This document shows positions 23,441-33,222 of a stretch of DNA of 64,000 bases, in pieces. The position numbers and the translations under genes were made by a program. Position 1 is the stretch's first letter. Each line of letters opens with the position of its first letter. This stretch comes from Nitrobacter vulgaris. GTDB taxonomy: Bacteria; Pseudomonadota; Alphaproteobacteria; Rhizobiales; Xanthobacteraceae. The stretch covers positions 1-64,000 of the forward strand of contig NZ_MWPQ01000036.1 in assembly GCF_002028545.1 (NCBI RefSeq), given 5' to 3'. A model generated the notes under the pieces. It searched no databases, was not told the origin of the DNA, and saw nothing but the letters and a program-made list of their open reading frames with translations.

Positions 23441-23773
23441 ATGATGAAAGCGCGTATCGCCAAATTCCAGATCGGCCAAATCGTTCGCCATCGGATTTTT
23501 TCGTTTCGTGGCGTGATCTTCGATATCGATCCGGTCTTCAACAACACGGAAGAATGGTGGCTCTCGATCCCGGAGAATGTCCGGCCGCACAAGGACCAGC
23601 CGTTCTACCATCTGCTTGCCGAGAATGCGGATTCCGAATACGTGGCTTATGTGTCCGAGCAGAACCTTCTGCCAGACGATTCCGGTGAACCAATTCGGCA
23701 TTCGCAGGTCACAGAAATTTTCGTCAAGGACAAGTCCGGGGGCTATCGCCCTCGCAACCCGTCCCTGAACTGA
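23441..23773 (+). CDS. hspQ: HspQ heat-shock/protease-specificity factor
   Basis: A 110-residue protein beginning MMKARIAKFQIGQIVRHRIF. The core FRGVIFDIDPVFNNTEEWWL and RPHKDQPFYHLLAENADSEY, then VAYVSEQNLL, is characteristic of HspQ/YccV hemimethylated-DNA-binding-fold proteins. HspQ modulates Lon protease substrate choice and binds DnaA variants in enterobacteria; in this group the role is less studied. A second ATG is directly adjacent at 23444. A strong bidirectional terminator follows. Confidence 0.9.
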   Translation: MMKARIAKFQIGQIVRHRIFSFRGVIFDIDPVFNNTEEWWLSIPENVRPHKDQPFYHLLAENADSEYVAYVSEQNLLPDDSGEPIRHSQVTEIFVKDKSGGYRPRNPSLN

Positions 23774-23846: not shown

Positions 23847-24620
23847 CTATTGCTTGGCGGTAGGTGCGCCGGCGCTCTGCTGAGTAGCTTCGAGCTTCGC
23901 GCGTGCCTCAGCGGCTCGCTTTTGCAGTTCTTCCTGGAGTTTCTTCTGGGTCTCCTCGAACACCTTGGGGTCGGTCGGCGGGCCGTCATAGGCCTTCGCG
24001 AATTCAGCGAGCGGCAGCGGCAGCGTCAGCGGAGCCCCGTTGGAATTGATCGCCTGCACAATCAGGTTCTGGCCCTTCTTCATGTGGCCGAGCATATCCG
24101 CTGTCAGTTCATAATCAGACATGCAGCCGTTGGTGAAGCAGATCACGTAAGGGCTCTGCTGCGGCGGATTACTGTCGATAATGATCCGCGTTCCGTGGAC
24201 CAGTTGCATCCCGAGCGGCAGCGTCACGCGAAGAATCTTCTTCGGCTCGCCTTCGGGCTCGATGATGACCGCTGCGATCACAGGTTGGCCGGATTCGATC
24301 CGTCCATCCTTGCCGGTGAAACACACCTGCTTGGCCTTCTCGTCCTTCCCCTTCAGGCAGAACTTGGTCCAGGGCGCATAGATCAGCTGTACCTGCTGGT
24401 CGGCTGGCGCTGCCTGAGTCGCCGGCGCTGCCTGAGTTGCTGGCGCCGCCTGAGTCGCTGGCGCTCCCTTTGCGGCCCCCGGTTTGCCTTTGGATGAGGC
24501 GGGCGCTTGCTGAGCGAAAGCGTCCGACACAAATGGAGCGGCTACGAGCGTCACCGCGGCGAACAAGGCAAAGGCCCGTCCGCGAGGCAAAGCGGACGCG
24601 GTCAAGAGACGAAAATTCAT
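23847..24620 (-). CDS. Invasion-associated locus B (IalB) family periplasmic protein
   Basis: A 257-residue protein. The ATG at 24620 starts a long signal peptide (AFALFAAVTLVAAPFVSDAF, cleaved near AFA-QQ). A low-complexity Ala/Pro/Gln linker with three copies of APATQA follows, then the IalB domain: IYAPWTKFCLKG, QVCFTGKDGRIESGQPV, LRVTLPLGMQLVHGTRIIID and PYVICFTNGCMSDYELTADM. The four cysteines of the domain are conserved. The C terminus is a charged coiled-coil-like stretch. The family was named from a Bartonella invasion locus, but is common in free-living relatives, where its role is unknown. Confidence 0.88.
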   Translation of the reverse strand: MNFRLLTASALPRGRAFALFAAVTLVAAPFVSDAFAQQAPASSKGKPGAAKGAPATQAAPATQAAPATQAAPADQQVQLIYAPWTKFCLKGKDEKAKQVCFTGKDGRIESGQPVIAAVIIEPEGEPKKILRVTLPLGMQLVHGTRIIIDSNPPQQSPYVICFTNGCMSDYELTADMLGHMKKGQNLIVQAINSNGAPLTLPLPLAEFAKAYDGPPTDPKVFEETQKKLQEELQKRAAEARAKLEATQQSAGAPTAKQ

Positions 24621-24652
24621 TGCGGAAAACCCTTTCCTGAACGCCAGCGGTC

Positions 24653-24707
24653 TCGATTCTAACATTCGCATTTCGTTTCAGCGAGCCTTACGAATGTTTA
24701 GAATCGA
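24653..24707. promoter_or_regulatory. Long inverted repeat in the divergent IalB/YejA-like promoter region
   Basis: TCGATTCTAACATTCG (24653-24668) and CGAATGTTTAGAATCGA (24691-24707) are reverse complements apart from one bulged A, with 22 bases between. It begins 33 bases upstream of the IalB-family start. The whole 24621-24988 gap holds no gene; it also has a GC hairpin (CCCGCCC 24807-24813 with GGGCGGG 24819-24825) without a T-tract. The repeat could be an operator or an RNA hairpin in the leader. Confidence 0.4.
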
Positions 24708-24988: not shown

Positions 24989-26866
24989 GTGATAAAATTT
25001 TCTGTGCGTAAGTTCGAATCAAAACGGATCCGGTTTTTTCGATCGATACCGCGTTACCGCGGCCGGACAGGAGTGTGTCTGGCGCTCGCAGTCGGGCTGC
25101 TCGCTGCCGGATACCAAGGAGTTGCGGCGAATCCCGGCTACGCCATCGCAATGCATGGCAAACCGGTCTTGCCGCCTGATTTCAGCCAGATGCCCTATGC
25201 CAATCCGGACGCTCCCAAGGGTGGTCAACTGGTTCAGAGTGTTCCCGGTAGCTTCGATAGCCTCAATCCCTTCATCGTCAAAGGCGTCGCGCTCCAGCAA
25301 ATTCGAGGGTTCGTGGTCGAGAGCCTGATGGCCCGAGGCAACGACGAACCTTTCACGCTCTATGGCCTGCTGGCGGACAAGATTGAAACCGACGATGCCC
25401 GAACTTACGCCACCTTCCACCTCAACCCGCTGGCGCGTTTTTACGACAAACAACCCGTTCGTGCCGAAGACGTGCTCTTTTCCTGGCAACTCCTCCGGGA
25501 CAAGGGCCGCCCCAATCATCGTCAGTATTATTCGAAAGTTGCAACGGCAGAGGCGATCGATGAATGGACGGTGCGTTTCGATTTCGGTGGAACCGTGGAT
25601 CGCGAACTGCCCCTGATCCTTGGCTTGATGCCTATTTTGCCGAAACATGCCATCGATGCCGCTACTTTCGAACAGACCTCGATGACACCCCCGTTGGGGT
25701 CTGGGCCGTATCGCGTGACCTCAGTCAAGCCTGGCGCCAGTGTTACGCTGACGCGCAACCCGGACTACTGGGGGCGTGACCTGCCGGTCAACCGCGGCCT
25801 GTGGAATTTCGATGAGATCAGGTTCGATTTTTATCGAGAAGCCAATAGTCAGTTCGAGGCCTTCAAGCGCGGTCTGTATGATTTTCGTGTCGAGACTGAA
25901 CCGCTGCGCTGGCACGAAGGGTACAATTTTCCGGCTGCGGGCAATGGCCAGCTCGTGCGCGAAGCCGTCAAGACCGGCCTGCCCGCTCCCTCGGAATATC
26001 TGGTGTTCAATGCGCGACGGCCGATATTCTCCGATATTCGTGTCCGCGAGGCGCTGACGCTGCTATTTGATTTCGAGTGGATCAACCGAAATTATTTTTT
26101 TGGACTTTACAGCCGTGCTGGCGGCTTCTTTGCGGGATCGGAGCTATCCGCCTACGCACGCGCTGCTGACGAAGGAGAGCGGTCGTTGCTGGAGCCGTTT
26201 CCGTCGGCCGTGCAGCCCGACATTCTCGACGGCAGCTACCGCCTTCCGATGACCGATGGTTCGGGCCGGGACCGCGAGGCCTTGCGTGCCGCCCTCGCCC
26301 TTCTGTCGCAAGCGGGTTATGAGTTTGACGGCACGGTTTTACGTCACCGCTCAACCAAAGTGCCCCTCGCCTTTGAAATCCTGGTGACCACCCGTGATCA
26401 GGAGCGAATCGCGCTGACTTACGCGCGTGATCTGAAGCGGGCAGGCATTGACGTGTCCGTGCGCTCAGTCGATGGCGTACAGTTCGATCAGCGTCGGCTC
26501 GGGTTTGATTTTGACATGATCCAGAATCGCTGGGATCAATCGCTGTCGCCCGGCAATGAACAGTCCTTCTACTGGGGTAGCGAAGCCGCCGACACTCCGG
26601 GTACCCGAAATTACATGGGCGTGAAGAACCCGGCGATCGATGCCATGATCGCAGCCATGCTCAAAGCCCGGCAGCGACCCGACTTCGTAGATGCGGTTCG
26701 CGCACTCGACCGGGTCCTGATGTCCGGATTTTATGCAATTCCGGTCTATAACGTTCGAGAACAATGGATCGCGCGCTGGAATCGGATAGAACGACCAGCA
26801 GCGACCGCGTTGACTGGATATCTCCCTGAAACATGGTGGCGAAGGCCGCCGAAGCCGGGCAAGTGA
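24989..26866 (+). CDS. Periplasmic oligopeptide-type solute-binding protein (SBP family 5, YejA-like)
   Basis: A 625-residue protein with a GTG start and a basic leader before the signal segment (GVCLALAVGLLAAGYQGVAA). Typical YejA-like features are YAIAMHGKPVLPPDFSQMPY, NPDAPKGGQLVQSVPGSFDS and LNPFIVKG, then PYRVTSVKPGASVTLTRNPD and YWGRDLPVNRGLWNFD. Such proteins deliver peptides or related molecules to an ABC permease. No permease or ATPase gene is adjacent, only the degenerate ligase four bases downstream. Its partner transporter is therefore encoded elsewhere. Confidence 0.88.
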   Translation: MIKFSVRKFESKRIRFFRSIPRYRGRTGVCLALAVGLLAAGYQGVAANPGYAIAMHGKPVLPPDFSQMPYANPDAPKGGQLVQSVPGSFDSLNPFIVKGVALQQIRGFVVESLMARGNDEPFTLYGLLADKIETDDARTYATFHLNPLARFYDKQPVRAEDVLFSWQLLRDKGRPNHRQYYSKVATAEAIDEWTVRFDFGGTVDRELPLILGLMPILPKHAIDAATFEQTSMTPPLGSGPYRVTSVKPGASVTLTRNPDYWGRDLPVNRGLWNFDEIRFDFYREANSQFEAFKRGLYDFRVETEPLRWHEGYNFPAAGNGQLVREAVKTGLPAPSEYLVFNARRPIFSDIRVREALTLLFDFEWINRNYFFGLYSRAGGFFAGSELSAYARAADEGERSLLEPFPSAVQPDILDGSYRLPMTDGSGRDREALRAALALLSQAGYEFDGTVLRHRSTKVPLAFEILVTTRDQERIALTYARDLKRAGIDVSVRSVDGVQFDQRRLGFDFDMIQNRWDQSLSPGNEQSFYWGSEAADTPGTRNYMGVKNPAIDAMIAAMLKARQRPDFVDAVRALDRVLMSGFYAIPVYNVREQWIARWNRIERPAATALTGYLPETWWRRPPKPGK

Positions 26867-26870
26867 CCTC

Positions 26871-28373
26871 GTGCTCCAGAACAATCCATCGCCCACGCTG
26901 GATGAGCTATTCGACCGTATCCGTGCCCGGCAGCCGGATCAGCCGGCGCTGATTGATCCGCCCGACAAGTTGCGGGTTACGGGACAACCGCCGCGGCGTC
27001 TGACCTTTGCCCAGGCAGATCGGGCCGTATCAGCGTTGGCGGCCCACTTTATCGACGCCGGTTTGCCGGCCAATTCGGTCATAGCAGTACAATTGCCGAA
27101 CACCATTGAATTGGTGCTGACAGTGCTTGCCGCCTATCGCGCCGGTCTGATCGTCGCGTTATTGCCCCAGCTTTGGCGGCAGGCTGAACTTACTGTTGCG
27201 ATCAACCGAACGGGAGCGCGCGCGATCGTTGCCATGGGCAATATCGACGGTGTCGATCATGCCGATCTGGCGATGAATGCGGCTGCGGAGGTCTTTTCCG
27301 TCCGTCATGTCTGCGGATTCGGCAGCAATTTGCCGGAAGGAATGGTTCCACTGGAAATTGCCATCGATAGGAAAATCGACAACTCGCGGCTCGCGGTCCA
27401 GGATTCGCGCCGCGCCGCGCTGGTGACGTTCGAGGCCTCGGGCTCGGGTTTTCTCGCGGTGCCACGAACCCATGTAAACCTGATCGCCGCCGGGCTCGCC
27501 GTGTTTCTTGAGAGTGAATTGCCCCAGAGCGCAACAATTCTCTCGGCTCTCGCACCGTCGTCGTTCGCCGGGCTGACTTCATCGTTCGTGATGTGGCTGC
27601 TCAGCGGCGGCACGCTGGCACTGCATCATCCCTTCGACGAGGATGTTCTTGCGCAGCAGATCGAGACCGAACGTTGCGACACGCTGGTCACGCCGGCTCC
27701 GCTGGCATTGCGGATGGCGGAAGCCGGCGTTCTGTCATCCATGCCGAGCTTGCGTCATGTCGTCGGGCTCTGGCGGGTTCCGGAACAGGTGGGGTCGAGT
27801 GCGCTCTGGCCCGACAACGGGTGTCAGATGACGGACGTCTACCTGTTCGGCGAAGTGGGTCTTTTCGCGGCTCGCCGGGCGGAGGATGGCTCCCCTGCCC
27901 CAATCATGCCCGGTCCTTACCGGGCGCCGCCTCAGGTTCCCATATCATCGACGGCCGGCGAAATCGTTTTGACTCCGAACGGAACGCTGGGGCTACGGGG
28001 ACCGATGGTTCCGATCGCGGCTTACGCCCCGTCGGAACGGCCGTCCGATGCCCTCGGCTCGCTGTCCCAGCCGGACTTCGTGGATACAGGCTATGCGGCA
28101 CGGATCGATCGCGCCACAGGCGCCATCGCCATCACGGCCCCGCCCGCTGGTGTCATGGCCGTAGGTGGTTACAGGTTTCTTGAACCGGATCTCCAGGAGT
28201 GGGCACGACGGCTCGGACCGAGCGCCATGCTGACCGCGCTTCCCGACCGTCTGAGCGGCCATCGCCTTGCCGGGCGAGCCAGCGACAATACTCGCGCTCG
28301 CGAGGCGCTCACGGAACTGGGGTTGAACCCGTTGATGGTGGAAGCGTTTCGCGATCGTCGGGTGACCGACTGA
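26871..28373 (+). CDS. Degenerate adenylate-forming ligase-like protein
   Basis: A 500-residue protein of the acyl-CoA synthetase superfamily, GTG start four bases after the preceding stop. The overall fold is recognisable (RLTFAQADRAVSALAAHFID, NSVIAVQLPNTIELVLTVLA, AYRAGLIVALLPQLW). The catalytic motifs are eroded. The phosphate loop, normally TSGTTGxPK, reads ASGSGFLAVPR (189-199). The YGxTE motif reads YLFGEVG (324-330), the TGD motif reads TGY (406-408), and the C-terminal catalytic Lys region reads RLSGHRL with His464. It therefore probably lacks ligase activity and may have a binding or regulatory role. Confidence 0.8.
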   Translation: MLQNNPSPTLDELFDRIRARQPDQPALIDPPDKLRVTGQPPRRLTFAQADRAVSALAAHFIDAGLPANSVIAVQLPNTIELVLTVLAAYRAGLIVALLPQLWRQAELTVAINRTGARAIVAMGNIDGVDHADLAMNAAAEVFSVRHVCGFGSNLPEGMVPLEIAIDRKIDNSRLAVQDSRRAALVTFEASGSGFLAVPRTHVNLIAAGLAVFLESELPQSATILSALAPSSFAGLTSSFVMWLLSGGTLALHHPFDEDVLAQQIETERCDTLVTPAPLALRMAEAGVLSSMPSLRHVVGLWRVPEQVGSSALWPDNGCQMTDVYLFGEVGLFAARRAEDGSPAPIMPGPYRAPPQVPISSTAGEIVLTPNGTLGLRGPMVPIAAYAPSERPSDALGSLSQPDFVDTGYAARIDRATGAIAITAPPAGVMAVGGYRFLEPDLQEWARRLGPSAMLTALPDRLSGHRLAGRASDNTRAREALTELGLNPLMVEAFRDRRVTD

Positions 28374-28458: not shown

Positions 28459-29691
28459 ATGTCCCAGCAAGGCCCGCTCATCGTTATCTCACACGGCGAG
28501 CGACGAGCGTCTCTAGTCATCCCATCATGCCAGAGCATCTTTCCCGTCATCGACATCGATTGGTCGGAAGCTTCCGAGGGCATCGAACTCCTTCAACCTG
28601 CAGCCGTCTTTGTCCCCACGACCGAAGGCGCGGCGGGTGGGGGATTGGATCGTCTTGCTGATCAGCTTGCTGCGATGCAGCCTTACGTTCCCCTGATCGT
28701 CGCCGATCCCGAAATGCCCTGCCCGGACAACGCGCTTCCGTTCTCGCTCCTGAACGGAGGGATCGATCGGTTCGACAGGCGTCTCAATGCGGCGCTACGC
28801 GTGCGAACGCTTCACAAGACCGTACTTCGGCGGCTTGCGAGTAATCCGGCGGTCCCACGCCTGCCGGATTCGAACCCGATCGGGGATGCGACCGTTCTCC
28901 TGATTGGGCGCGGCGCCGCCTATCCCACGCTATCGGTTGCTTTTGGCGAACGGCTCGGCGTCGTCGGGGCGCTCAGCATCGAGGTAGCGGCGAAGCACCT
29001 CAACGCGCGCGATCTGGACGGAATCATTATCAGCGAAGGATTCTCTCAGCGTGTGGTTGACGCGCTGTTGACTGTACTGGCTGAAGACTCGCGCTTTCGT
29101 AATTTGCCGATCGCGGTTACGTCCGGCGGCTCGTTGGCGAACTATGATCTTCCAAATCTCGAAGTGATGTCAGGCGAGCCCTATCGCGTCGTAAGCACAT
29201 TTCTGCCGTTGGTTCGACAGCAAGCTTTCGAAGCCCGTCTCCGTCGTACGCTAAGGTCCATGGATGCGGGTGGTCTTTTGGACCCACGAACCGGCCTTCT
29301 GACCCTGGATGCCTTCCACCGTGAACTAAACTCGGCAATCCATCAGACCCGATCCAGCGCGGCAAACATCTCTGTTGCCCGCTTCTCACTTGGTCAGAAG
29401 CATGAACGCTCACTATTCGATGCAGCTCGTATTCTGAGCCGGCTCATGCGGCGAATGGATTTCGGTACGCTCGAAACCGACGGCTCGATCGTTGTGGTCT
29501 TCGCCGACGCCGATTTGCGCAACGCCCAGATGATCGCGCGACGGCTTTCGAGCGTGATGAAGCATACGACCCACAGTGTTAAACGAGCAATGCGAATCGA
29601 TCCCCAGGTCGCCCTGACGGCATCAAGATCCGATGACTCCGTAGCGTCGCTTCTGAGCCGCTTGAATGAGAAGGCGCGTGCTGCGTCATGA
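28459..29691 (+). CDS. GGDEF-domain-like protein with a degenerate active site
   Basis: A 410-residue protein. The N-terminal 250 residues look like two receiver-like alpha/beta units (IFPVIDIDWSEASEGIELLQ; LDGIIISEGFSQRVVDALLT). The C-terminal part starts at Asp275 with DPRTGLLTLDAFHRELNSAI, the usual entry to a GGDEF domain. The GGDEF signature is replaced by LETDGS (338-343), so it is not expected to make cyclic di-GMP. It could still bind GTP, cyclic di-GMP or a partner. It follows the ligase-like gene by 85 bases on the same strand. Confidence 0.72.
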   Translation: MSQQGPLIVISHGERRASLVIPSCQSIFPVIDIDWSEASEGIELLQPAAVFVPTTEGAAGGGLDRLADQLAAMQPYVPLIVADPEMPCPDNALPFSLLNGGIDRFDRRLNAALRVRTLHKTVLRRLASNPAVPRLPDSNPIGDATVLLIGRGAAYPTLSVAFGERLGVVGALSIEVAAKHLNARDLDGIIISEGFSQRVVDALLTVLAEDSRFRNLPIAVTSGGSLANYDLPNLEVMSGEPYRVVSTFLPLVRQQAFEARLRRTLRSMDAGGLLDPRTGLLTLDAFHRELNSAIHQTRSSAANISVARFSLGQKHERSLFDAARILSRLMRRMDFGTLETDGSIVVVFADADLRNAQMIARRLSSVMKHTTHSVKRAMRIDPQVALTASRSDDSVASLLSRLNEKARAAS

Positions 29692-29697
29692 TAGCCG

Positions 29698-32600
29698 TTA
29701 CGCCGCCTTGCGATCCTCCGCGAGATTGGCAAGCTGGCGCATGATTTCGGTGGTACCCATCAGGCGTTCCTCCGGAGTTTCCCAGTTCTGAAAGAACACG
29801 ACTTTCATGTCGGGGCGAACCTTTGCCGCCTGTCCATGCTGGCGGATGAAATAAACCAGCCGATCGGGTTGCGCGAACTTGTTGTCCCGGAAGGAAATCA
29901 CGGCGCCTTTCGGTCCCGCATCGACCTTCTCGACATTGGCACGGCGGCAATAGGCTTTGATCGCTGCGACCTTGAACAGGTAACGGACTTCGTCCGGCAA
30001 TTGGCCAAAGCGGTCGCGCAGCTCCGCGGCAAAGTTATCGATTTCATCATCGGTGTCGAGGTCGGCAAGCCGACGATACAACGATAGCCGAACTGCCAGA
30101 TCAGCAACGTAGTCTTCCGGGATCAACACCGGCATCCCGATGGTGATCTGCGGGGACCAGCGATCGTCGGCAAGTTCCGTCACGCCGGTTTTGAGATTCT
30201 CGATCGCCTCCTCCAGCATCGATTGATAGAGCTCGAATCCGACTTCCTTGATGTGGCCCGACTGTTCCTCGCCGAGCAGATTGCCGGCGCCGCGAATGTC
30301 GAGATCGTGCGATGCAAGCTGGAACCCGGCCCCCAGGGTTTCGAGCGACTGCAAAACCTTCAGCCGGCGCTCGGCCTGCGCCGTGATCTTATGCTTCGAC
30401 GGCAGCGTGAACAGCGCATAGGCGCGCAGCTTCGAGCGGCCGACCCGGCCGCGCAACTGATAAAGTTGCGCCAGCCCGAACATGTCGGCGCGATGCACGA
30501 TGAGAGTGTTGGCGGTCGGAATGTCGAGCCCGGACTCCACGATGGTCGTCGAGAGCAGGACATCGTACTTGCCGTCGTAGAAGGCCGATATGATGTCCTC
30601 GATCACTGTCGGCGGCATCTGACCGTGAGCGACAGCGACCTTCATTTCCGGCACGTGCTTGTCGAGAAAATCCTTGACCTCGGCCAGATCGCTAACGCGC
30701 GGTACGACATAGAAGGCCTGGCCGCCGCGATAGCGTTCGCGCAGCAGAGCCTCGCGGATCATCAAAGGATCGTGCGGCGCCACGAAGGTGCGGACGGCGA
30801 GCCGATCGACCGGCGGCGAGGCGATGATCGAGAGGTCGCGTACGCCAGTAAGGGCCAATTGCAGCGTGCGCGGGATCGGAGTGGCGCTCAGCGTCAGAAC
30901 GTGTACGTGCGCTCGCAGTTGCTTCAGCCGCTCCTTGTGACTGACGCCGAAATGTTGCTCCTCGTCGACCACCAGAAGTCCAAGGTCTCTGAACTTAATG
31001 GATTTACTAAGTAAGGCATGTGTGCCGACGACGATATCCACCGAGCCGTCAGCAATCCCCTTCTTGACCTTCGTCAACTCCTTCGGCGACACCAGCCTCG
31101 ATGCCTGCGCGACATTGACGGGAAAACCACGAAACCGCTCAATGAAAGTTTTTGTATGTTGACGTGCAAGCAGTGTTGTCGGCACAACGACCGCGACTTG
31201 CTTTCCGTCCAGTGCGACAGCAAAAGCCGCCCGCAAGGCCACTTCGGTTTTGCCGAAGCCCACGTCACCGCACACCAGCCGATCCATTGGCTTGCCGCTC
31301 TCGAGATCCTCCAGCGACGCTTGGATGGCGCCGAGCTGATCCTCCGTTTCATCGTAGGGGAAGCGCGCACAGAATTCATCGTAGAGACCGGACTGTACCG
31401 GCAGCTTCGGCGCATCACGCAAATGCCGCTCCGCGGCGATTCTAATCAATTCGCCTGCGATCTCACGAATGCGGCTTTTCAGCTTGGCCTTGCGGGCCTG
31501 CCACCCACCGCCGCCGAGCCGATCAAGTTCGACATTGGCGTGATCGGAGCCGTAGCGCGATAGCAGTTCAATGTTCTCAACCGGCAGGAATAGTTTGGTT
31601 TCGTTGGCGTAACGCAGTTCCAGACAATCGTGCGGCGCACCGCCGACTTCCAGCGTCTGCAGGCCGACAAAACGCCCGATACCGTGCTCGACGTGAACAA
31701 CGAGATCGCCCGTCGCAAGGCTGGTTACTTCCGAGATAAAATTATCGAGTTTACGGCTGGCCTTGCGCGGCCGCACCAGACGATCGCCAAGGATATCCTG
31801 TTCGCTGATGACCGCTACGGTTTCGGTCTCAAATCCCGATTCTATTCCGACGACGGCCAGCATGACCTCATTGCGTGGCGTTGCCTGAACCGTGCGCCAG
31901 ACATTGATGCTCGTCAGGTTGAGCAGCTTGTGATCCCTGAGCATGCTCGCCATGCGGTCGCGCGAACCCTCGCTCCACAACGAAACGATGACTTTCTTCC
32001 GCGTGGCCTGCAAGGCCAGCACGTGGGACACGACGGACTCGAAAACGTTGAGGGTAGCGTCTGCCCGTTCTGGCGCAAAATTTCGCCCCTGCCGTGCGCC
32101 CGCATCGATGACATTGAGAGTTTCGTCAGGCATCGCGAACGGCGTCAGTCGCACCAGCGCCGCTTCATTGATCCGTTTCGTCCATTCATCTGGCATAAGA
32201 TAAAGACGGTCAGGCGGAAGCGGCTTATAGGGCGCGCCGCCGCCGGCGTGCTCAAGGGCCTCGCGGCGCGCTTCAAAGTAATCGGTGATCTGCTTGAAAC
32301 GCTCGCTTGCGGCGTCTTCGCCCTGCGGTTCGATGACGATGGCCGCGCCGTCAAGATAATCGAACAGCGTGTCCATGCGTTCGTGAAACAGCGGCAGCCA
32401 GTGCTCCATGCCTGGATATCGCCGCCCTTCGCTGACAGCCTCATACAACAGGTCATCGCGTTCCGGTGCGCCAAAAGCCGCGACGTATCCCATTCGGAAG
32501 CGCCGAATGGTTTCGGTGACAAACTGGAATTCGGAGATCGGGACGAGATCGAGCGAGCGTACGTCGAACAGCGTGCGCTGGGTTTCCGGGTCGAATGATC

Positions 32601-33222
32601 GGATCGACTCCAGCGAGTCGCCGAAGAAATCGAATCGGACAGGCTGGTCGAGACTGGAGGGAAACAGATCGAGGATGCCGCCGCGCACGGCATATTCGCC
32701 GGGTTCGCGAACCGTCGAGGAACGATTGTAGCCGTTGTGCTCAAGCCATGCGACGATTGAATCCATCGGCACCACATGGCCGGGCGCGACCGACAGGGCC
32801 TGAGACGCAACGATCTCGCGCGCCGGCACGCGTTGCAGGATCGCGTTGATCGTCGTGAGCACGATCAGAGGCGCGTCGCTGCCGGTCAGACGAGACAAGC
32901 GCGCAAGCGTTGTCAGGCGCTGGGCAAGTACGCCTCCATGCGGCGAGACTCGATCATAGGGCTGGCAATCCCACGCCGGAAACTGCATGACCGAAATATC
33001 AGGCGCGAAGAACTCCAGCCCGCGCGCCAGCTGCTGCATCCGCGGGCCATCCCGGCAGACCACCGCCAGGCTAACTGCCGAGACCTGCCGCCCCGCCTTG
33101 GCCTTGATGGCTCGCGCGAGGTCAGAGACGACAAGCCCTTCGGCGCCTTCCGCGACATTCGCGAGCGTCAGTGGACGACCCGGTGACAGCGAGTCCGCAG
33201 GTGATCGGGGAGCCGCTTTCAT
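29698..33222 (-). CDS. mfd: Transcription-repair coupling factor Mfd
   Basis: A 1174-residue protein of normal length. The N-terminal UvrB-homology region is present. The RNA-polymerase-interaction domain follows ([20 protein letters not shown]). The RecG-like translocase has Walker [27 protein letters not shown] as the DExx motif and SATPIPRTL. The C-terminal TRCF domain ends the protein. Mfd removes RNA polymerase stalled at lesions and recruits UvrA. The start overlaps the sdhE stop as ATGA (33219-33222), so the two are co-translated. Confidence 0.97.

Follow-up and report, generated by a model that had tools for sequence, protein, structure and literature searches.

A predicted ANL-fold pseudoenzyme maintained beside a YepA-type gene in Nitrobacter vulgaris and its relatives

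In a 64,000-nucleotide stretch of the Nitrobacter vulgaris genome (contig NZ_MWPQ01000036.1 of assembly GCF_002028545.1; hereafter the window), the gene at 26871-28373 encodes an ANL-fold protein, and its reading as a pseudoenzyme is strongly supported. Alignment shows that the parts predicted to use ATP, namely the P-loop, the A7 Asp, A8 and A10, have been lost, and a loss of catalysis is a well-supported prediction. The ligase fold was retained across an order of bacteria despite the loss of these parts, which suggests a new, non-catalytic job. The locus is composed as follows.

23441..23773, forward strand: HspQ/YccV-like protein (PF08755), a constant neighbour of the locus
23847..24671, reverse strand: IalB-domain protein, the syntenic counterpart of RgsG (PMC7327166, PMC9790009)
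24989..26866, forward strand: gene of a putative YepA-type family 5 solute-binding protein (SBP), directly upstream of the ANL-fold gene with 4 bases between (PMC9790009)
26871..28373, forward strand: predicted ANL-fold pseudoenzyme of 500 aa, from its ORF, PF00501 and AlphaFold2 fold
28459..29691, forward strand: degenerate PleD-like protein of predicted REC-REC-GGDEF fold that has neither GGDEF motif nor receiver Asp
29698..33222, reverse strand: mfd-like gene (a name we presume from its sequence), the far border of the locus

The frame of the ANL-fold gene (26871-28373, +) starts with a GTG codon, 4 bases after the stop codon of the upstream gene (26864-26866), and remains open for 500 codons. 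Its product matched the AMP-binding profile PF00501 above the cut-off (E 2.9e-27), and the closest PDB entries by sequence were salicylate and dihydroxybenzoate AMP ligases (CahJ, E 7.9e-14). No signal peptide was seen in the sequence of the 500-aa protein. An AlphaFold2 model, for which the window protein and 39 relatives from the best 80 of 357 named loci served as input, showed the ANL fold with a mean pLDDT of 79.6 and a pTM of 0.83. Foldseek and VIA-align gave CahJ, FscC and DhbE as its best PDB neighbours (E 3.4e-27, Z about 33-35), and Z values between the model and ANL structures ranged from 31 to 35. The original prediction had claimed that a 500-residue ligase fold is kept and had proposed a comparison of the predicted structure with acyl-CoA ligases; both the profile match and the confident model bear this claim out.

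The catalytic motifs were counted in an alignment of 73 rows, consisting of the window protein and 72 same-order homologues, with motif-intact orthologues as the reference. Left out before counting were L001 (the window itself), L021, and L068 and L069, which represent one G005 gene that an N-filled assembly gap cuts in two. The pieces of this gene (G005:C8) lie approximately 100 kb apart and both end at N runs, and we put the split down to the assembly and not to biology. In G037 and G038, each match reads through one stop codon, and the ORFs were used unchanged. The best 80 of 357 named loci, which come from Nitrobacter, Bradyrhizobium, Rhodopseudomonas, Tardiphaga and relatives of these, were found with a closer alignment and are biased to Bradyrhizobium and its kin. 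The following sites were located in the window protein.

27426..27464, forward strand: lost P-loop (A3) site, residues 186-198, from alignment and model
27834..27854, forward strand: A5 region, residues 322-328 (DVYLFGE), from alignment
28083..28094, forward strand: A7, residues 405-408 (DTGY), ribose-binding Asp replaced by Tyr
28140..28178, forward strand: A8 and hinge, residues 424-436 (PPAGVMAVGGYRF), R-x-K-D gone and GG retained
28320..28352, forward strand: conserved C-terminal tail, residues 484-494 (GLNPLMVEAFR), of low model confidence

A phosphate loop without Lys had been predicted, and the motif is indeed absent from the window protein. The P-loop Lys was aligned in 2/73 rows, no Lys was found at residues 186-198 in the best 80 of 357 named loci, and the model shows the site within a beta-hairpin, formed by strands 183-190 and 193-200, in place of a phosphate loop. 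The reading of TGD as TGY held as well: the A7 Asp was present in 0/73 rows, and the position is occupied by Tyr or Phe in all of the best 80 of 357 named loci. According to PMC3438747, the A7 Asp contacts ATP in every structure available at that time. The original prediction erred on A5, where YGxTE was said to be lost and to read YLFGEVG, but the Glu is retained as E328, opposite the Glu of ..GSNEG.. in intact orthologues, and was present in 64/73 rows. D322 was found in 72/73 rows, while intact relatives have Asn there. An additional loss, beyond those originally predicted, concerns A8: the window protein has neither R-x-K-D nor the A10 Lys, and across the 73 rows the A8 Arg, Lys and Asp were counted 10, 3 and 5 times, respectively, and an Arg preceding the hinge GG 0 times. 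The A10 Lys was found in 1/73 rows, with a gap at that position in 54/73. The C-terminal catalytic Lys is thus lost as predicted, but His464 is not its stand-in, since the Lys stretch is deleted and position 464 is Glu in 9/9 intact orthologues (H/Y/Q/F 62/16/1/1 among the best 80 of 357 named loci). The tail at 484-494 replaces the missing end of the C-terminal domain that bears the A10 Lys.

In the intact orthologues (9/9 rows), the P-loop Lys, A5 Glu, A7 Asp, A8, the Arg before the hinge, the A10 Lys, R199 and H201 are all present. R199 was also found in 65/73 rows of the alignment, H201 in 63/73 and R336 in 66/73, and R199, H201, D322, E328 and R336 are invariant in the best 80 of 357 named loci. 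Conservation of the altered residues across orthologues had been proposed as a check, and the losses proved to be common to the 72 same-order homologues and to all of the best 80 of 357 named loci.

The gene is under purifying selection, with a dN/dS of 0.08-0.25 in 10 pairs. In three window pairs, the ANL-fold gene gave 0.115-0.146, compared with 0.080-0.101 (yepA), 0.159-0.229 (PleD-like gene) and 0.041-0.056 (mfd-like gene). The protein measures 494-511 aa in all of the best 80 of 357 named loci, and the C-terminal tail NPL..AFR is conserved in most nearer homologues. Several residues became fixed after the motif loss (D322 in 72 of the 73 rows, R336 in 66, A110 in 63 and M379 in 62). Shortened forms of 405-454 aa occur (L064, L074, L078, L082), and the C-domain is reduced or absent in several rows. 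Random decay is rejected on the strength of the dN/dS values, the near-equal lengths in all of the best 80 of 357 named loci and the shared substitutions. Catalytic residues lost across orthologues under purifying selection are what we understand by a pseudoenzyme, and the absence of the A7 Asp from all 73 rows, the purifying selection and the single clade of defective forms uphold the original claim. Orthologues with intact motifs, revealing random decay here, had been named as evidence against it; intact orthologues do exist, but in another order only. Because the loss is order-wide, the gene is under purifying selection and the defective forms make up one clade, we conclude on loss followed by maintenance and not on random decay.

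The intact orthologues came to light when 289 genomes of the class were searched with a profile. The search led to G374, a genome of another order (resembling Parvibaculum, at a guess) in which the same neighbours accompany a ligase with all motifs. In this sister order, an orthologue of at least 59% identity was present in 20/40 genomes, and in 9/9 fetched loci (L073, L231-L238) the YepA-type gene is followed by a nitronate-monooxygenase-like gene and, further downstream, by the intact ligase. The ligase is accompanied by FadL-like (some loci), nitronate-monooxygenase-like and CoA-ligase genes, the first two names being our assumption from sequence. In NCBIfam, the intact orthologue came nearest to models of long-chain fatty-acid-CoA and cyclohexanecarboxylate-CoA ligases, with scores far under the cut-off. 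The neighbours of the intact ligase suggest an origin in acyl metabolism, not in cell-wall recycling.

With L231 as the query, 297 genomes of the window's own order were searched, and no intact orthologue came up. Seven matches passed E 1e-62 (best 311 bits, 36%), of which four were already aligned; the other three were added, all without motifs. An intact orthologue inside the order was rejected, as all seven matches are motif-defective. Trees were calculated without the motif columns, with 37 pseudoenzyme rows retained after thinning and without two near-identical rows of the intact form; a further tree, from a careful search, also omits eight long or duplicated rows. All 37 pseudoenzyme rows fell on one side of a branch with an SH-aLRT of 100, and in the careful-search tree the same was found for 34 rows (100/100). 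Adjacent to them are the intact rows, together with L075, an active ligase that is not linked to YepA; a single clade of pseudoenzyme and intact rows (41 vs 16) was not rejected by the AU test (p 0.44). Being linked to YepA does not itself define a clade, since L075, which is intact and has no YepA nearby, falls beside or among the intact rows. The trees and the shared locus show the descent of the ANL-fold protein from a motif-intact ligase that still lies beside a yepA-type gene in the sister order. A single loss in the ancestor of the carriers, before their families diverged, with maintenance thereafter, is the simplest reading.

The original prediction had placed the gene four bases from a YejA-like gene. 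The spacing is correct, but the neighbour is better named YepA-like, since a separate YejA-like gene pair exists elsewhere in the genome: two further SBPs (38-39% identity) are encoded as a YejA-like pair, followed by two permease genes and an ABC ATPase gene. Two tandem YejA-like SBP genes before permease and ATPase genes were observed at G000:C6:51491-55161 (L241), and similar tandems in many relatives. The window SBP is a YejA paralogue encoded apart from yejBEF and beside the IalB-domain gene, a DsbA-like gene follows in many relatives, and its best PDB matches, MbnE and 4ony, scored well above YejA. Gilmore and Cava 2022 (PMC9790009) report for Agrobacterium that the gene of the muropeptide SBP YepA (Atu1774) lies away from yejABEF and has RgsG and a DsbA-like protein encoded next to it; RgsG has an IalB domain and a polar localisation (PMC7327166). 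From these gene-level likenesses, we take the upstream gene as that of a YepA-type, putative muropeptide-binding protein. The Agrobacterium YejBEF-YepA importer, as presented in PMC9790009, resembles the present case in its separate SBP gene beside an IalB-domain gene and in YejA-like SBPs elsewhere before permease and ATPase genes; there, however, the A. tumefaciens yepA neighbour is the DsbA-like protein (Atu1775) and not an ANL protein. The window genome additionally encodes AmpG. Outside the window's family, AmpG was found in 11/20 genomes with the ANL-fold gene and in 5/20 without it (Fisher p 0.11, kinship ignored).

The ANL-fold gene was present in 67/100 relatives, i.e. in 47/60 from the window's family and in 20/40 outside it (one genome per family). 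The SBP gene is the next gene upstream in 66/67 carriers, the 67th (G005) being broken by a run of N. It also precedes the ANL-fold gene in 79 of the best 80 of 357 named loci, with a 4-base gap in 35, and the 80th is cut by a contig end. Among the 33/100 relatives without the ANL-fold gene, 28 retain a YepA-level SBP and 5 do not; YepA therefore does not depend on the ANL-fold gene. The reverse may hold as well, since G338 (L074) carries a shortened pseudoenzyme of 437 aa between the IalB and mfd-like genes and no YepA-level SBP was found in this genome, its SBPs reaching only 38-40% identity. YepA seems to have been lost there.

A fuller version of the locus is found in L056, with hspQ, IalB (reverse), yepA, pseudoenzyme, motif-intact ligase, PleD-like, DsbA-like and mfd-like (reverse) genes. 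Different parts were lost by lineage, the PleD-like and DsbA-like genes come and go across the relatives' loci, and the window retains yepA, pseudoenzyme and the PleD-like gene. The second, motif-intact ligase (ANL2) adjoins the pseudoenzyme in L048, L050, L056, L059 and L067, and no close ANL2 was found in the window genome (best 31% identity). In L131-L134, ANL2 occupies the pseudoenzyme's place after yepA, and the ANL2 of L073 is nearest to fatty-acyl, MbcS and benzoate-CoA ligase models. In L136-L141 and L143, which have no pseudoenzyme, the DsbA-like gene directly follows yepA, as reported for Agrobacterium. A Bradyrhizobium-like copy, 69% identical, in a record titled Reyranella (L187) is probably a binning error.

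The gene downstream of the pseudoenzyme (28459-29691) is, judged by alignment and model, a second degenerate enzyme at the locus. Its product had no Pfam match and a weak NCBIfam match to PleD. In its model (pLDDT 84.1), the REC-REC-GGDEF fold was recovered, and PleD accounted for all ten best PDB matches. The GGDEF motif was absent in 36 aligned PleD-like rows, and in these 36 rows neither receiver domain has its phospho-acceptor Asp where the third strand ends, except for one row at position 193. A long ORF (at least 380 aa) occupies the PleD-like position in 78/80 of the best 80 of 357 named loci.

By sequence and by fold, the window protein stands closest to CahJ (Z 35), FscC and DhbE in the PDB, with which it shares PRTH after the P-loop site; it differs from them in having no P-loop, A7 Asp, A8 or A10, a shortened C-domain and other neighbouring genes. 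The sister-order orthologue (L073, L231-L238) occupies the same locus (hspQ, yepA) and a sister position in the tree, but differs by its complete catalytic motifs, its full C-domain and its linkage to a nitronate-monooxygenase-like (in some cases FadL-like) gene. PleD, in turn, shares fold and domain order with the downstream protein, which is missing the GGDEF motif and the receiver Asp. ANL-derived regulators are known in kind: DIP2 is a regulatory protein with an ANL-derived domain, although it is eukaryotic and multidomain and has no link to cell-wall uptake. In a literature search conducted mostly without subscription journals, no account of the window's ANL-fold protein was found.

With regard to function, the explanation that we hold with fair confidence is that of an ancient, functional ANL pseudoenzyme, cytosolic and non-catalytic, which binds a ligand or partner in muropeptide import. 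Its role would be that of a binding, sensing or adaptor protein. The pseudoenzyme would be produced in the cytosol together with the YepA-type muropeptide-binding protein, would not adenylate and would act via its large N-terminal domain and a polar set, in which R199, H201 and E328 appear ancestral and D322 and R336 new. Direct contact with YepA is unlikely, because the pseudoenzyme is presumably cytosolic (no visible signal peptide) and YepA periplasmic, which leaves the imported peptide, the YejBEF core or the PleD-like neighbour as candidate partners. The likeliest job would be to bind one of these, tuning or reporting uptake. A bolder version, to which we give a small chance, joins yepA, the pseudoenzyme and the PleD-like gene into one module: the two dead enzymes would act as cytosolic receptors, with a new polar site (R199, H201, D322, E328, R336) reading cell-wall fragments or the importer state and signalling polar growth via the PleD-like partner and IalB/RgsG.

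The same five residues could also have acquired new chemistry, with E328, R199 and H201 and the gained D322 and R336 forming an ATP-free active site, e.g. for hydrolysis or transfer on an acyl, amide or CoA ligand. Their retention or new fixation in the 73 rows (D322 72, R336 66, E328 64, R199 65, H201 63), and their invariance in the best 80 of 357 named loci, would fit such a site. However, R199, H201 and E328 already belonged to the intact ligase and may have survived for structural reasons; moreover, the ANL fold neighbours of the model are presumably all ATP users, and the C-domain is cut down or missing in several rows. We consider new chemistry unlikely. Continued adenylation, with ATP handled by another loop or a partner supplying the missing parts, is a good deal more doubtful. 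While the A5 Glu is retained and the motif-intact ANL2 adjoins in the loci of five relatives (L048, L050, L056, L059, L067), the P-loop, A7 Asp, A8 and A10 were lost together order-wide, and the hypothesis of an adjacent ANL2 as partner is weakened because the window genome has no close ANL2.

That the pseudoenzyme is unrelated to YepA, and serves the PleD-like neighbour, the IalB/RgsG polar-growth system or a lipid metabolism inherited from the ligase, ranks among the unlikely readings too. G338 keeps its short gene without YepA, the intact form has acyl-metabolism neighbours, the PleD-like neighbour is likewise degenerate and RgsG is polarly localised (PMC7327166), all of which would suit such a role. 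Against this stands the constancy of the upstream SBP gene (66/67 carriers and 79/80 of the best 80 of 357 named loci), whereas the PleD-like and DsbA-like genes come and go. Finally, an operon-held relic in slow, functionless decay might be suspected from the absence of the gene in 33/100 relatives and from the shortened forms of 405-454 aa (L064, L074, L078, L082). A dN/dS of 0.08-0.25, the length of 494-511 aa in all of the best 80 of 357 named copies, the residues newly fixed after the loss and the conserved C-terminal tail make a relic highly improbable.

With the ANL pseudoenzyme, the YepA locus gains a candidate component. Its homologues are likely annotated as acyl-CoA ligases, by which metabolic models may be misled. 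Moreover, the locus offers a change from enzyme to pseudoenzyme whose "before" state survives in the same genomic position in a sister order, so that one can date the change and read the constraints that came with it.
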